Below are positions 23,153-30,928 of a stretch of DNA of 40,869 nt, in pieces (within the stretch, counting starts at the first letter, position 1; every line of letters starts with the position of its first letter). Made by a program: the position numbers and the translations under genes. The notes under the pieces are model-generated. The model was not told the DNA's origin, made no database searches, and worked only from the letters and a program-made list of their open reading frames with translations. Source of the DNA: Oscillospiraceae bacterium. Its GTDB lineage: Bacteria > Bacillota > Clostridia > Oscillospirales > Acutalibacteraceae. Location of the stretch: the NCBI GenBank assembly GCA_031269595.1, contig JAISYX010000002.1, forward strand, positions 1 to 40,869. The letters are read 5' to 3'.

Positions 23153-26100
23153 TCAGCTAATTTCAACTAAAATAACATGCTTAACTCTTGTTTGGTTAAA
23201 ATCATCGGCATACACTGCAACCGTGTAAGTGCCCGCAGCGGGGAAGCTGTAGCTAAAGCTATTCTCTAGGCTATAGCTGTTTGAGTAGTAAACCTTACCC
23301 TCGGCATAAACATAGTAGGAATACTTGATAGGTGCCTGCCCGCCTATGGTGTTTGTAATAAAGGTTAGCGGGCTGCCTGCTTCCAAGCTCTCAGGAGTGC
23401 TTATGCTTGTAATGCCAAACTCAATAGCCGGAAGCTGCGGCCATGCCCCCTCTGCAATAGAGCGCGGGTGCTTGGCGTCTATAACCTCAGCTGCGGCCTT
23501 GGTGTAATCCAGCGATTCAAAATCGGCGGCATTGTTGCGGGTATCCTGCAAATCAATGCGGAGCACAGCCTTCTTTTTGGTAGAGCCGTCTACAGGTGCG
23601 CCTAAATAGCCTGTAACCTTAGAGGCATCGCCGTCATATGCGCCAACTAAATCTACAAGCTGAGGCAGCTCTGCGGGGTTGTTTACGCTAAGCAGATTTA
23701 AAGACGAGACCAGCGCAGCCTTGTATTCCTTGTTGTACATATCAATGCCTGCCCATGCCTGATCATATTCGGTTATTGTATATGCGGCTGTGGGTGAGAC
23801 TGTTTTTGTAAAGGCCACAAGGAAGGAGTGCTTAGGAGGCACAGAGCCTACCAAATCTAGCTTTTGCCAGGTGCTCTCTGTGCCCTTGGCTATTTGCAGA
23901 GAGCAGCCGCTTAAGTCAACGGTGCTGTCTGTGGGGTTATACAGCTCAATAAAGGAGTGGCTTATTGCAGTAGCGGTAGCGTCTCCTCCGTTGCCGTATA
24001 TCTGATTGATTATCAGGCTTACGCCTGTTCTGTAAAGCTCGGTAAACCTGGCCTCAAGGGTTCTGCTTGCCTCTGCGGCAAAGGTGTATGAAGCACCTGC
24101 GCCCTCCAGCTTGCTTTCGTTTTCATACCAGCCCTCAAACACGTGGGTTGAATCTGCTGCTGCGCTTAAGGTGACGTTTGCGCCTGCACTGTATTCGCCG
24201 CCGCCTGTAACCTCACCGCCGACTGTGCCTGCTGTAGCGGTGATGGTGTATCGCTCTACAGGTGTGCTTGTAAATCTGGCCTCAAGCACTCTTGCTGCGG
24301 AGGGTGCAAAGGAATAGGAGGCCGCGGAGCTTGCAAGCGTGCCGCTCTCATACCAGCCGTCAAAGTAGTAGCCTGAATTGGGCACAGCAGAAGCTGTGGC
24401 CACAGTGCCTTGAGTATAGCTCCCGTTACCGGAGGCAGTGCCGCCCGCCGTTGCAGAGGCAAGCACAGCAAATGCTGTCACGGGAATAGCCGTAAATCTA
24501 GCTTGCAGGGTGACATTTGCCGTGGCGGTAAAGGTGTAGTTAAGTGCTGTAGAAACTCTGCTTGAGCCGTTGTACCAGCCGTCAAAGCTATAGCCTACAT
24601 TTGGAGCTGCCGTAACTGTTACCTCAGAGCCGTTGCGGAACTGGGTATCGCCGTTTGCGCCAATGGCCGTGCCGCCTGTAGCGGCGGTTACGGTAATGCT
24701 GCGCAGCTGGGGCAGAGTGCCGTTGTAATATTCGATGTCAAGCCACCTTAAACGGCTGTTAAGCATGGTTTTAAGGCGGGTAACGTTAGAATCCCAGCTA
24801 GGCAGCACAACCCCTGTTGAGGGCCATATGCCCAGCTTAAGGGAGTGCCAACGCTGCTCGTTAAGAGCCTGAGAAAATGTAAGCTCTGTGCGGTAGCTCT
24901 CTATAATGCTGTCTATTTGCTCGAGCAAGCCGTTGTTGCGCAGGTAGGTGTAGCGTGCAATTACAGCGTTTTTAAATTCGTTGTAGGTAAACAGCTGAGC
25001 AAACCAAGGGTGGCCTGTTCTTGTTACCCACTGCTCAACCCAGTAGCTGTTGGGGTCGTAATTTGTTTTGTTCCAGTAAAGAGCCTCTCCTATTTGGCCT
25101 ATTGCGCCGTCAAAATCCCATACAGGGCCGGCCTTTAGGGTGTCTGTAAGGCTCTCGGACCACATAAAGCCGCTGTTGTTGTTCTCGTCCCAGTTCATCA
25201 TTATCTCATTGACAAGATAAAAATCTATCCAAGAGTTAACATCAATGTTGCTCTGCCAAGTGTTGTTATACAGGCTGTTCTCTACCGCTTGAATCCTGCT
25301 GCGAATTGGGTTAAACACATTTTGGCCGGCGACAGCTCCGCTGTCCATTTTATCCCCGGGCTCAGGCTCTTTTATATACATTGCCCTGTTCCTTGAGGTA
25401 AGCACACGGGTGTCGGGGTCTTCCTCAAATTTTGCATCGTGTTCTATTATATAGCCCTCTGCGGCGGTGTTAATGTCTATTCTTGCACTGCCGGATTCAA
25501 CCTTGCTTGCCAGCATATAGGTGCCGTCATAAACCCCGTTGATTATAAGCTCTACATTTCTTGTCTGTATAGTGTAGGGCACAGGATTGCCGCCGTAGCG
25601 GGATTCTGCCATAAAGCCCTCCATGGCATAGGCAAGCTCGCTTTGTATGGCGGTTTTATCGGCATAATTTGATATAAGCACCCACTTTTTTGCCGAGCCC
25701 ATACCTAAGACATCCTGCTTTTTATCAAATTTAACCTGATACCCCAGCTTTGGGAAGTAGGAAGAGGAGGAGCTGCCTCTGGTTTTTATGGTTGTGCCCT
25801 TTGAAATAGCAAAGGAGAGCTCGGGATATTCTCCGTCGGCTGTTATGTCAAAGGAGCAGGGGAGCTGCTCAGCCTTTGAGATTAGCGGGTCGTTGGTGTT
25901 TGCTGTGTTTATAGAGACAACAGGCAGGCCTGTGTCAGGCAGAGGCAGGGGCACATTGGGTGAGGGTGTTGGTGCTATATCCGAGAGGAGCATTATATTA
26001 TCAAAGTAAATATCCCCTGAATATTCTTGATAACCAAACACCGTTGAGATGAGCATCAGCTCGCTAAGGTGCTGACCCTGTGCAATGGTGGTGCCTGAGG

Positions 26101-28288
26101 CCATATCTCTTGTGTGAACCAAAGCACTAAACTTAAGCAGGTTGTTGCCCACAGGCACACCCCAGTTAAAGGAGGCGGCGGTTTGCTCACAGTTAAGGGA
26201 ACCGTTGCCGTCTGAGCTGCCAATGTGCGGCTCTATATTAAAGGTTCCCCATTTTGTAAGCCCGCTATCTTGAATGTAATATTCAAAATAGAGCCACTTT
26301 ACATTGCTTATATCTGTGCCCGCACCGTTTGTTGTGCGCAGATAGGGCACACGGGTTTGGTCTGTGCACCACTCGTTGGACTCGCCGACATTAAGGTTGC
26401 GTGTAATCTTAAGTGCCTGAGATTCTGCAGTGCCCAAGCTTGTGCCGCTGCCCGCAGTGGTGTTCCAGCCCTGTAGGCCGCTTTCAAAATCCCACTTGTA
26501 TACAACATTGCCTATTGGACGTGGTGCATATTCTGCAGCCTTCATAACCGCTTTAGCATACTGTCCGGAATCGGTGAGGTCATATACGCTTAAGCCATCT
26601 GTTGGCTGTGCGGGGGCTGTGTCCTTGTACTTGCGGTAGCCTCCCCGAATGATATAATTTAGCTCGCCTGTAAGCAGCCCGCTGTTGGTGGTGTTAAAAT
26701 CACCCCAAGAGCCGCCCACGCTGTTATCTGCACGCCAGGTCTTCCAAGTATCTGCACGGTAGTTTATTGCCTCCAGATTGTACATTGTAAGCTTGCACTG
26801 GGTTACAAAAACAGGTATGCTAAGTGCACTTAGGTAAGTAGTAGTAGGGGTTGCGGCAGATTCTGCACAGTCTATGCTAAGGGCATAGAGTATGTTAGAG
26901 CCTGTAAGCACAGCCGCTTGATCAGGCCGCTTGCCTGCGGAGGGGCTGCCTGCAATGATAAGCGCAGAGGGAGCAAAGCGGCGTATCTCATTAACTATAC
27001 TCTGCCCGCCGGAGGCCACCCCTGAAAAGGCGTAAATAACGCCTGGGTTATCCTTGTAATCGTAAGCAATGGCGGCAAGATATTTGGCCGCTCCTGCTGC
27101 GTCTGTGCCTGTGTAATCCACCACTGTATACAGCCCTGCATCCGTGGCTAATTTAACCGCAAGAGAGGCGGTTACAGAGGGTGTAACACGCACAAAGTCG
27201 GCGTTCCAATCATTTTGCAGCACATAAAAGGAGGCGGCGTTGACCCTCTCAGGCTCTGTTACAGTAACGCCGTTAAGGGTGAGTGTGGTGTTGGCGGAAT
27301 CCTTGATATATTTGCCCTCCACATGCAGTGCGCCGTATTTTAGGGGCACTATAGGAAAGGATACACGCACAAACTTAGCCTCCAGTGACCGTGAAGCTGT
27401 GGCTATAAAGGTATAAGCTGCATCTGCATTGGCAAGCTTTAATCCGTTTTCATACCAGCCCTCAAACTGAAAGTTGGGGTCAGGGGTGGCTGTTAGGGTA
27501 ACTCCTGTGCCGGAATCGTAAGCTCCGCTGCCTGTAACAGCTCCGCCTGCGCCTGCGGCGGCGGTTATGGTGTAGCTTATTGTGGGCGGGGGTGCAAAAA
27601 CTCCGTCTGCAAGGGAGTGAGGACGCTTAGCCGCAAGCACCTCTGCGGTGGCCTTGGTGTAATCCAGCGATTCAAAGTCTTCGGAGTTGTTGCGGGTATC
27701 TTGAAAATCAATGCGGCGCACGGACTTCTTTTTTGTAGAGCCGTCTACAGCCGCACCTAAATAGCCTGTAACCTTGGAGGCGTCGCCGTCATATGCGCCC
27801 ACTAAATCCACCAATTGAGGCAACTCTGCGGGGTTATTTACATCTAGCAAGGCTGTAGAGGAGAGCAGTGCGACCTTGTATTCCTTGTTGTACATGTCAA
27901 GGTTTGCCCAAGCTTGGTCATATTCAGGTATTACATAGGCAGAGCTTGGGGAGCTTGTTTTGGTAAAGACAATCAAGAAGGAATGACCTGAGGGCACAGA
28001 GCCTGTTAAGTCCAGCTTTTGCCAGGTGCTCTCTGTGCCCTTAGCCAGCTGCACAGAGTAACCGTTTAAGTTTATTGTGCTGCTTGTTGGGTTGTACAGC
28101 TCAATAAAGGAGTGGCTTACGGCGGTTGCGGTTGAATCGCCGCCGTTGCCGTAAATTTGATTAATAACCAGAGTGCTTGCAGGTGAGCCTGACTCTGCAA
28201 CAGCAGAGAGGGGGATGGACGTTAGCAGCATTGCAAGGATTAAACCCCATGCAATAAGCTTAAACGAACGCTTAAGATTTTTTTTCAT
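23153..28288 (-). CDS. Secreted CotH-kinase exoprotein with two lamin-tail domains and a degenerate GH5 domain
   Basis: 1711 residues. Signal peptide (1-33); lamin-tail domain (about 40-165, SFIELYNPTSSTINLNGYSV); one InlB-type B-repeat (about 236-310, FEGWYENG); a GH5-like region (about 305-540); a beta-sandwich region resembling a carbohydrate-binding module (about 560-720); a CotH kinase domain (about 800-1180) with IKTRGSSSSSY, KKQDVLGMG, KKWVLISNYADK and VWDFDGAIG (D1060); three B-repeats (about 1196-1420); a second lamin-tail domain (about 1424-1545); and a C-terminal beta domain (about 1626-1711) shared with the chitinase upstream. CotH kinases phosphorylate secreted or coat proteins. 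In the GH5 part V424 stands where the acid/base Glu of NEP is expected and Q497 where the nucleophile Glu is expected, so it is probably inactive. ATG at 28288 follows GGAGG by 7 bases. It is the second gene of an operon with the chitinase. Confidence 0.85.
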   Translation of the reverse strand: MKKNLKRSFKLIAWGLILAMLLTSIPLSAVAESGSPASTLVINQIYGNGGDSTATAVSHSFIELYNPTSSTINLNGYSVQLAKGTESTWQKLDLTGSVPSGHSFLIVFTKTSSPSSAYVIPEYDQAWANLDMYNKEYKVALLSSTALLDVNNPAELPQLVDLVGAYDGDASKVTGYLGAAVDGSTKKKSVRRIDFQDTRNNSEDFESLDYTKATAEVLAAKRPHSLADGVFAPPPTISYTITAAAGAGGAVTGSGAYDSGTGVTLTATPDPNFQFEGWYENGLKLANADAAYTFIATASRSLEAKFVRVSFPIVPLKYGALHVEGKYIKDSANTTLTLNGVTVTEPERVNAASFYVLQNDWNADFVRVTPSVTASLAVKLATDAGLYTVVDYTGTDAAGAAKYLAAIAYDYKDNPGVIYAFSGVASGGQSIVNEIRRFAPSALIIAGSPSAGKRPDQAAVLTGSNILYALSIDCAESAATPTTTYLSALSIPVFVTQCKLTMYNLEAINYRADTWKTWRADNSVGGSWGDFNTTNSGLLTGELNYIIRGGYRKYKDTAPAQPTDGLSVYDLTDSGQYAKAVMKAAEYAPRPIGNVVYKWDFESGLQGWNTTAGSGTSLGTAESQALKITRNLNVGESNEWCTDQTRVPYLRTTNGAGTDISNVKWLYFEYYIQDSGLTKWGTFNIEPHIGSSDGNGSLNCEQTAASFNWGVPVGNNLLKFSALVHTRDMASGTTIAQGQHLSELMLISTVFGYQEYSGDIYFDNIMLLSDIAPTPSPNVPLPLPDTGLPVVSINTANTNDPLISKAEQLPCSFDITADGEYPELSFAISKGTTIKTRGSSSSSYFPKLGYQVKFDKKQDVLGMGSAKKWVLISNYADKTAIQSELAYAMEGFMAESRYGGNPVPYTIQTRNVELIINGVYDGTYMLASKVESGSARIDINTAAEGYIIEHDAKFEEDPDTRVLTSRNRAMYIKEPEPGDKMDSGAVAGQNVFNPIRSRIQAVENSLYNNTWQSNIDVNSWIDFYLVNEIMMNWDENNNSGFMWSESLTDTLKAGPVWDFDGAIGQIGEALYWNKTNYDPNSYWVEQWVTRTGHPWFAQLFTYNEFKNAVIARYTYLRNNGLLEQIDSIIESYRTELTFSQALNEQRWHSLKLGIWPSTGVVLPSWDSNVTRLKTMLNSRLRWLDIEYYNGTLPQLRSITVTAATGGTAIGANGDTQFRNGSEVTVTAAPNVGYSFDGWYNGSSRVSTALNYTFTATANVTLQARFTAIPVTAFAVLASATAGGTASGNGSYTQGTVATASAVPNSGYYFDGWYESGTLASSAASYSFAPSAARVLEARFTSTPVERYTITATAGTVGGEVTGGGEYSAGANVTLSAAADSTHVFEGWYENESKLEGAGASYTFAAEASRTLEARFTELYRTGVSLIINQIYGNGGDATATAISHSFIELYNPTDSTVDLSGCSLQIAKGTESTWQKLDLVGSVPPKHSFLVAFTKTVSPTAAYTITEYDQAWAGIDMYNKEYKAALVSSLNLLSVNNPAELPQLVDLVGAYDGDASKVTGYLGAPVDGSTKKKAVLRIDLQDTRNNAADFESLDYTKAAAEVIDAKHPRSIAEGAWPQLPAIEFGITSISTPESLEAGSPLTFITNTIGGQAPIKYSYYVYAEGKVYYSNSYSLENSFSYSFPAAGTYTVAVYADDFNQTRVKHVILVEIS

Positions 28289-28357
28289 AAGAATACCTCC
28301 AAAATATAGTTTTAAAAAAACTCTGAAAGGTAAATACGAAGGCATGACACAGGTGTT

Positions 28358-30928
28358 TTAGACTATATTAACATATATAACACGCTTGACCCTTGCGCCC
28401 TCACTGTCGTCTGCATACGCTGCAATGGTATAGCTCCCTGCACTTGGGAAGGTGTAGGTGAAGTTGTTTGATGAGGTATAGGCATTTGAGTAATACACCT
28501 TTCCCCCTGAATAAACATAGTAGGAGTACTTCAGAGGCTCTTCGCCTCCCGCCGTTATTGCTTTAAAGCTTAAAGGAGTGCCTGCTGTTAGATTGCTTGG
28601 GGTGGTAATGCTTGTTATTTCAAAGTCAATTTGAGGCAGCTCCGTAAATACGGCAACCAAGGTGCGGTGACTTGCAGCAGGGAAGGTGTAGCTTGCGCTT
28701 GAGCTAACCTTTTGAGAGGGATTTGTGTTTGGATAGCTGAGCTTGCCCTCATACCAGCCATCAAAGGCATAGCCCTTATTTGGTGTTGCCGTTACTGTGG
28801 CAGAAGCTCCGCTGTTGTAGATGTTTGTACCGGAGACAGCTCCGCCGCCTTCAGTGTCTACATACACACTGTATTTAGTTGATGCTTTATACGCACCGTT
28901 TACACTCTCCCACATGGCTTTGGATACAGTAAAGTCTGAGGTATCCAGCATAACGCTCCATGAGAATATGCCCGCAAGGTTGTTATCTATGACATACTGG
29001 CCTTTTTCGGCGGCGGCACGGGTGCTCTCATAGGTTACAGCAAACTCCCCATCCTTTGAGAGGTAAGAGGCGTGTGCCTGAGCATCCCACTCATCCTGAT
29101 ATACTCCGCTTGCAATTAGCGACCTAATCTTCTCTAAATTGTAATAATCACTGCTGGGGTTATACCCGGCCTCGTCCTTATATTCAAAGGCAGGGAACTG
29201 GCCGCCTATGTTGATTTTATTTGAGGGTATGCCCTTGCTCATTGTGTATCTTACAGTGTAATCGGTAGAGATGCCGCTGAGGCCGTCTGTCCCGGGCCAA
29301 GCAGCATGAGGCGAGCCGTTGCCGTAAAGGTTGGAATCATGAAAGCCTGCGCCGCAGTTCCCCGGGGAGTTGCCCATGGTGTAGCAGTAGGTCATTGCAT
29401 TCCAAAAATCAAGGTAGGTATCCATTGCAGGGTAATTATAGTGCTGCCCGTACCAATTGCCGGGAGGGGCGGCTACGCTTAAATCCTTGTCGCTGCCAAT
29501 GGCGTTGCGAATGTCACGCAGCAGATAGACATAATTTTGAGTGTCCGCAGGGGAATAGCCAACGCCAGCATCGCTTGAGCCGGGGAACTCCCAGTCTATA
29601 TCAAAGCCATCCAGATTAAACTCCTGCATTAAGTCTACAAGAGAGGCGACAAAGGTATCTCTGCCCTGCTGTGTAGCGGCCATTTGAGAAAAGCCGTCTG
29701 CTCCTGCGCCGCCCACAGATAAAATTATTTTTAAATTAGGGTTGATTTTTTTAAGCTCGCTAAGGCGGTTGAGGCAGAACGCATCGGAATAGCTGCCTGT
29801 GCGGTTGATTTCCGCTTTGTTAGTGTAGAAGTTTACAGAACTAAAGCAGTAAAAAATGTGTGTGAACATATTAGGGTCGGGCAGGGTGCTGCCGTCCCAG
29901 TTCCAGGGGGCAAAATATGCGCCTGCAATTTTGCTTGGTGCAGGGTAGATTGGTTCAAATCTGGCCTCTAATGTACGTGATGCTGTAACTGTGAGCCTGT
30001 ATGCGGCATTTTCAGGCTGTATACAAACTCCGTTTTCATACCAGCCCTCAAACTTATAGCCCTCAAAGGGTACAGCTCTTAGCACGGCGTTGTCGTTAGG
30101 TTCATATGCGCCTGCGCCCAGCACCTTGCCGCCCTCTTGAACCTGTGCTGTTATATTAAAAACAGTTGTGCCGATTGATGGCTTAAATCTGGCTTCAAGA
30201 ACTCGGTCAGTTACCGCCTCAAAGTCGTACGATTCGCCCGCTCCGTTAATCTTTACGCCGTTTTCATACCAGCCCTCAAAGTCAAAACGGGGGTCCGGCA
30301 TGGCACGGACATGGGCGTTTTCGCCTGCATTATAAATAAAGGTGCCTCTGACACGCCCACCGGAGGAGCCCAGATCTACATTTATTGAGACCTTATCAGC
30401 GGGCAGAACAACAGGCGCAGCACTGAGATAGCCCATTGCGGTAACGCTGCCTGTGGGGTTATTTTCGCCGTAAACCACAATGGTTACGCCCTCTGCGCCC
30501 CCTGCGTCATAGGCAAACTCATTTAACAGCTCCCAATAGCCCCAATAAACAGGTATAGCAGGCCTTTCTAAATAGCCATTTCTCTCATTCATTCCCGTTA
30601 AACATGCGCCCTGGCTGGCGTCGGGCAAAACTGAGGGGCCGCCGCCCCAAGGCATTCCGGGGCCTCCGTAAATGCTGTTAACAACGGCGGGATTATTTGT
30701 TTGGTCGCCGTTCCATATGTATATTGCACCCAGAGCTATAACATCAGGATAGGTGGGATACCCTCCCACAACCCGAACGGTTGTGCCGTCGTAGGTGCCA
30801 TAAACAGGCAAAATGGTGGTGGCGGCATTGCTTATTAATGCCGTGTTTGACATGCCGAAGCTTAATGCTAAAATGATAATTAAAGCAATACATCGTTTTA
30901 GGTTCTTAGTTGTAGTTGGGGTTTTCAT
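28358..30928 (-). CDS. Secreted GH18 chitinase with InlB-type B-repeats
   Basis: 856 residues. Signal peptide (about 1-36), an N-terminal domain of unknown type (about 37-175), two B-repeats (about 176-330, FEGWYENG in both), a GH18 catalytic domain (about 335-680), a further B-repeat (about 685-765) and a C-terminal beta domain (about 775-856, YSYYVYSGGKVYYSN). The catalytic motif DGFDIDWE (440-447) is complete, with SVGG earlier and a final FSWSVMLD, so it should hydrolyse chitin or related N-acetylglucosamine polymers outside the cell. The GH18 order and the AFEYKDEAGY-type loop fit extracellular chitinases rather than cortex enzymes. It is the first gene of the operon: promoter at 31059-31087, and the CotH gene follows after 69 bases without a terminator. 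The ribosome site is weak (GTGAG). Confidence 0.92.
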   Translation of the reverse strand: MKTPTTTKNLKRCIALIIILALSFGMSNTALISNAATTILPVYGTYDGTTVRVVGGYPTYPDVIALGAIYIWNGDQTNNPAVVNSIYGGPGMPWGGGPSVLPDASQGACLTGMNERNGYLERPAIPVYWGYWELLNEFAYDAGGAEGVTIVVYGENNPTGSVTAMGYLSAAPVVLPADKVSINVDLGSSGGRVRGTFIYNAGENAHVRAMPDPRFDFEGWYENGVKINGAGESYDFEAVTDRVLEARFKPSIGTTVFNITAQVQEGGKVLGAGAYEPNDNAVLRAVPFEGYKFEGWYENGVCIQPENAAYRLTVTASRTLEARFEPIYPAPSKIAGAYFAPWNWDGSTLPDPNMFTHIFYCFSSVNFYTNKAEINRTGSYSDAFCLNRLSELKKINPNLKIILSVGGAGADGFSQMAATQQGRDTFVASLVDLMQEFNLDGFDIDWEFPGSSDAGVGYSPADTQNYVYLLRDIRNAIGSDKDLSVAAPPGNWYGQHYNYPAMDTYLDFWNAMTYCYTMGNSPGNCGAGFHDSNLYGNGSPHAAWPGTDGLSGISTDYTVRYTMSKGIPSNKINIGGQFPAFEYKDEAGYNPSSDYYNLEKIRSLIASGVYQDEWDAQAHASYLSKDGEFAVTYESTRAAAEKGQYVIDNNLAGIFSWSVMLDTSDFTVSKAMWESVNGAYKASTKYSVYVDTEGGGAVSGTNIYNSGASATVTATPNKGYAFDGWYEGKLSYPNTNPSQKVSSSASYTFPAASHRTLVAVFTELPQIDFEITSITTPSNLTAGTPLSFKAITAGGEEPLKYSYYVYSGGKVYYSNAYTSSNNFTYTFPSAGSYTIAAYADDSEGARVKRVIYVNIV

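Follow-up and report, generated by a model that had tools for sequence, protein, structure and literature searches.

A GH5-type barrel predicted to be inactive and a CBM17/28-like module precede the CotH kinase domain of an Oscillospiraceae exoprotein

Bacillus subtilis CotH is a kinase whose targets are proteins of the spore coat (PMC7821199). The Clostridium thermocellum cellulosome also includes CotH proteins that bear lamin tail domains (PMC6083626). For cellulosomal CotH proteins a part in assembly or regulation has been proposed, and the function of CotH kinases among polysaccharide-degrading exoproteins is still called unclear (PMC12484212). Among endoglucanases, a GH5 domain followed by CBM17/28 is a known layout (PMC4976890). 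The window analyzed here, 40,869 nucleotides of contig JAISYX010000002.1 from an Oscillospiraceae bacterium (assembly GCA_031269595.1), encodes an exoprotein in which these two themes appear to meet: a divergent copy of the endoglucanase layout stands ahead of a CotH kinase domain.

Layout of the CotH exoprotein and its genomic setting

The coding sequence occupies 23153..28345 of the minus strand, and residues are numbered here by the longest reading frame in the ORF list (1730 aa). The natural start is probably M20, at 28288, chosen because MKKNLKRSFKLIAWGLILAMLLTS resembles a signal peptide. The first-pass annotation of this DNA counted from M20 (MKKNLKRS), and its V424 and Q497 correspond to V443 and Q516 below. 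Pfam places a lamin tail domain block (PF00932) at residues 59-253 (27587..28171) and an InlB B-type repeat (PF18998) at residues 258-327 (27365..27574), assigns no domain to residues 328-852, and then recognizes the CotH kinase domain at residues 853-1202 (24740..25789). Three more InlB-type repeats (PF18998/PF09479; ~residues 1213-1430, limits approximate; 24056..24709) bring such stretches to four altogether. The protein closes with a second lamin tail domain block, identified by Pfam and self-comparison (residues 1444-1638; 23432..24016), and a Y_Y_Y/PKD-like module (residues 1645-1730; 23156..23413); all of these features lie on the minus strand. The two lamin tail domain blocks, one at each end of the protein, share 77% identity at both the protein and DNA levels.

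The CotH assignment is secure by PF08757 (127.6 bits, E 9.7e-37, above the cut-off), in agreement with the original proposal that the degenerate GH5 domain shares its protein with a CotH kinase domain. A search of PDB sequences with this domain returned no CotH structure. In an alignment with 14 others, D1035, N1051, D1053, W1076, and D1077 are retained; given that these residues are conserved in relatives, kinase activity is plausible.

The C-terminal Y_Y_Y/PKD-like module, ~80 aa in length, has 30 matches in the same genome, some of them in exoproteins of the GH18, GH5, and CotH kinds, which may all use it to attach to the surface or to a matrix. Its recurrence in exoenzymes links the CotH protein to this exoenzyme set. 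The neighboring gene (28358..30928, minus strand) encodes a GH18 exoprotein with an intact DGFDIDWE motif and its own copy of the module at 28364-28618. The genome (2.57 Mb, 148 contigs) holds four GH5 genes that score above the cut-off of Pfam, besides three CotH genes, and its ~30 GH18 matches constitute an unusually large chitinase-type set. GH18 catalysis requires DxxDxDxE. Elsewhere in this genome, a giant exoprotein of 1635 aa (L018:2724-7628, contig C24) contains two GH18 domains, the second of which reads LDGVEISWIPE and is, judged by this motif, predicted to be a dead GH18 barrel.

Descent and predicted fold of the barrel and its adjoining module

The GH5-ordered motifs that the first-pass annotation had placed at 26600-27360 are present there on the minus strand, within a domain that we delimit to residues ~336-605 (26531..27340) by profile match, structural model with fold matches, and alignment. 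The Pfam GH5 family (PF00150) gives no match to the whole protein and only a sub-cut-off score to the domain alone (E 0.03), and the GH5 case therefore rests on other tests. With phmmer, GH5 cellulases rank first among PDB sequences (5i2u, E 3.7e-4; 1egz, 3.9e-4; 6gjf, 1.1e-3). Public genomes searched with an alignment of the barrel and two intact GH5 domains provided 80 GH5 loci, the candidates having tblastn E values against the barrel down to 6e-18. A profile built from these 80 intact domains, with the barrel itself left out, matches residues 336-520 at 47.9 bits (E 5e-17, for a database of one sequence), and by this route the proposed GH5 assignment holds despite the weak PF00150 score. 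Among 2000 shuffled versions of the domain, the maximum was 7.5 bits, compared with 63.4 bits for the real sequence. The alignment extends from the first strand, KYGALHVEG in place of the KHGxLxVxG of GH5, to the last helix, LTDSGQYAKAVMKA compared with LTPAGLYYRAHMKG in a GH5 protein of the same genome, and identity to intact GH5 domains is 22-31%. From these comparisons, residues ~336-605 are assigned as a divergent GH5_2-type domain whose homology is not a matter of chance.

An AlphaFold2 model computed with 75 intact GH5 sequences as the alignment reached a pTM of 0.82 and a mean pLDDT of 78.6, with high confidence over the first two thirds of the barrel and a minimum near strand 8. GH5 endoglucanases were the top Foldseek matches to this model (E 4e-15), the structural matches include 2ckr, and VIA-align superposed the model on GH5 endoglucanases with a Z score of 27.3 over 258 residues at 2.7 Å. 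A (β/α)8 barrel, the TIM barrel suggested by the first-pass annotation, is thus the predicted fold, with the caveat that the guiding alignment of intact GH5 sequences may bias the model. A model computed without an alignment was poor, and its fold matches were uninformative, pointing neither way.

The first-pass annotation had overlooked a second module directly behind the barrel, at residues 614-790 (25976..26506, minus strand). PF03424 matches this region at E 0.006, under its curated cut-off, and a profile of five relatives matches it at E 6e-14; shuffled versions score 5.9 bits, compared with 46.0 bits for the real sequence. Of the conserved tryptophan lines that may bind the glucan chain, one lines up with W659, whereas a second has no plain alignment. 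A search of PDB sequences with the region returned no CBM match. By profile comparison, we assign residues 614-790 as a CBM17/28-like module; together with the barrel, a whole cellulase cassette would therefore precede the CotH domain. One match in the survey of other genomes is a GH5-CBM17/28 protein over both modules of which a single query aligns. The same genome also encodes a 1594-aa exoprotein (L018:8479-13260) with GH5 at residues 76-322, CBM17/28 at residues 408-585, and both catalytic Glu residues present. In that GH5 domain, CPWF replaces DWH and a catalytic-site His is absent, and its activity is not certain. The GH18-bearing exoprotein L018:2724-7628 likewise has a GH5-CBM pair with both Glu residues.

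The active-site region of the barrel

Across the 80 intact GH5 domains, the Asn-Glu pair, the His-x-Tyr motif, and the strand-7 Glu are invariant. The CotH-protein barrel retains one of the eight GH5 catalytic-site residues, the strand-2 Arg (R386). The strand-3 His is absent, the end of strand 6 reads S490-I491-D492 (26870..26878, minus strand) where GH5 has His-x-Tyr, Q516 (26798..26800, minus strand) takes the place of the strand-7 nucleophile, and the catalytic-site Trp position is F550. These alignments bear out the original claim that both catalytic Glu and both His residues have been lost, with no Glu aligned at the ends of strands 4 and 7. At strand 4 (VIYAFSGVA, residues 436-444; 27014..27040, minus strand), where the Asn-Glu-Pro line had been read as replaced by G-V-A, the acid/base Glu is indeed missing, but the line and its loop have been deleted rather than cleanly substituted. 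Loops behind strands 1, 2, and 3 are also shorter, and the Trp, Tyr, and His residues conserved near the active site of intact GH5 domains are mostly gone. Of the acidic residues, D410 is retained at the end of strand 3 and D492 is newly sited at the end of strand 6.

Three GH5 relatives from the same genome retain six or seven of the eight catalytic-site residues, including both Glu residues in every case. They also keep 31-34 of 50 conserved non-catalytic columns, compared with 19 in the CotH-protein barrel. Preferential loss at catalytic positions was considered and is not significant (1/8 versus 19/50 kept, p 0.24), indicating that the whole domain has diverged. As read from the alignments, the damage goes far beyond a point lesion, and the GH5-derived barrel is predicted to be catalytically dead as a glycosidase.

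Distribution, possible roles, and comparison with known systems

Four genome surveys (60 relatives and 394 order-, 398 family-, and 398 phylum-level genomes, in overlapping sets) returned no orthologue of the cassette-CotH fusion. The CotH exoprotein itself aside, every match was a weak one to some other GH5 protein, and the proteins inspected have the catalytic lines. A single-protein scan of genome contigs with the 528-aa cassette detected no relative, and a plasmid search with the cassette gave no match. The first-pass annotation had proposed examining V443 and Q516 in homologues bearing the CotH domain; ~70 CotH loci of the same family, comprising the 30 best matches (with flanks of only ~1.5 kb) and 40 regions picked mostly for long ORFs, contain no GH5-like domain at E values up to 1. 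The first-pass annotation knew of no described combination of this kind, and neither the surveys nor the open-licence literature, searched for GH5 modules without activity and for GH5 joined to CotH, supplied a second example. In a quick tree, where its placement is not reliable, the terminal branch of the barrel measures 8.4 changes per column. A branch of this length fits relaxed constraint or decay and weakens the case for retention of the barrel.

We lean, with slightly better than even confidence, toward a pseudo-cellulase cassette in which the barrel serves as a spacer or scaffold. A GH5_2-CBM17/28 endoglucanase cassette lies within a secreted protein of lamin tail domains and InlB-type repeats, ahead of the CotH kinase domain, and sequence and model show that its catalytic residues and the loops of its active site are gone. 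The barrel would now most likely be an inert but folded spacer or scaffold, and any tethering of the protein to β-glucan would fall to the CBM17/28-like module rather than to the dead cleft. The C-terminal module common to the exoenzymes of this genome may position the CotH protein among them, and the CotH domain would there phosphorylate nearby secreted or surface proteins. A serious rival to the scaffold reading, tentative but well short of negligible, is that module shuffling captured the cassette and that the barrel is a relic decaying in frame, tolerated in a long, repeat-rich exoprotein of which only the rest matters. The very long end branch, the loss of conserved residues throughout the domain (19 of 50 non-catalytic columns kept) without a significant excess at catalytic positions, and the lack of an orthologue in the genome surveys all speak for such decay; the reading frame, however, is open through 1730 codons, glycine and core positions are retained, and the fold is predicted to persist, with high confidence in the first two thirds of the barrel.

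The remaining readings assign the cassette or its barrel a more active part. The cassette could be a glycan-targeting or sensing unit of an extracellular CotH kinase, such that exoproteins are phosphorylated where β-glucan is bound, which we consider doubtful. The first-pass annotation held that the barrel was kept as a glycan-binding or structural module. In the glycan-binding version, the dead GH5 cleft itself would hold a glycan, in the manner of chitinase-like GH18 lectins. Sugar-binding glycosidase barrels without the catalytic acid are known, and exchange of the nucleophile Glu for Gln still permits ligand binding in crystal complexes, as in Thermobifida Cel5A E355Q (2ckr). In the CotH-protein barrel, however, most of the aromatic and His residues expected in the cleft have gone, and the cleft-building loops have been deleted; such binding is very unlikely, and the adjoining CBM17/28-like module is the likelier binder. 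That the barrel is an enzyme employing other acids, such as the retained D410 where strand 3 ends and the newly placed D492 where strand 6 ends, is scarcely credible, given that no match was obtained to a family with this kind of site and that the active-site loops are deleted.

If the dead cassette does act as a targeting unit, it would provide a concrete, testable reason for the presence of CotH kinases among polysaccharide-degrading exoproteins. The barrel also adds a GH5 example to the glycosidase barrels that persist without catalysis. The weight of both points is limited by the cassette-CotH fusion having been seen in one genome so far. Like the chitinase-like GH18 lectins of the YKL-40/CHI3L1 type, the CotH-protein barrel is a glycosidase barrel minus its catalytic acid. 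Those lectins retain the binding cleft, whereas the barrel described here belongs to GH5 rather than GH18 and has lost most of its cleft residues.

A CotH-family domain is shared with B. subtilis CotH, which is a single-domain coat kinase rather than a large multi-modular exoprotein (PMC7821199). Closer in setting are Cthe_0239 (LTD-LTD-Fn3-CotH) and CseP of C. thermocellum, in which secreted CotH and lamin tail domains are likewise combined in a polysaccharide-degrading clostridium (PMC6083626); their listed domain structures include no GH5-CBM cassette, and no dockerin was seen in the exoprotein described here. For the cassette itself, the counterparts are Cel5I of Ruminiclostridium cellulolyticum and EngF of Clostridium cellulovorans, GH5_2 enzymes with CBM17/28 (PMC4976890), which share its module order, its barrel fold, and similar start-strand and end-helix motifs. 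The CotH exoprotein differs from both in lacking the two catalytic Glu residues, the His and Tyr residues, and any SLH domain or dockerin, and in that its cassette is followed by a CotH kinase domain.
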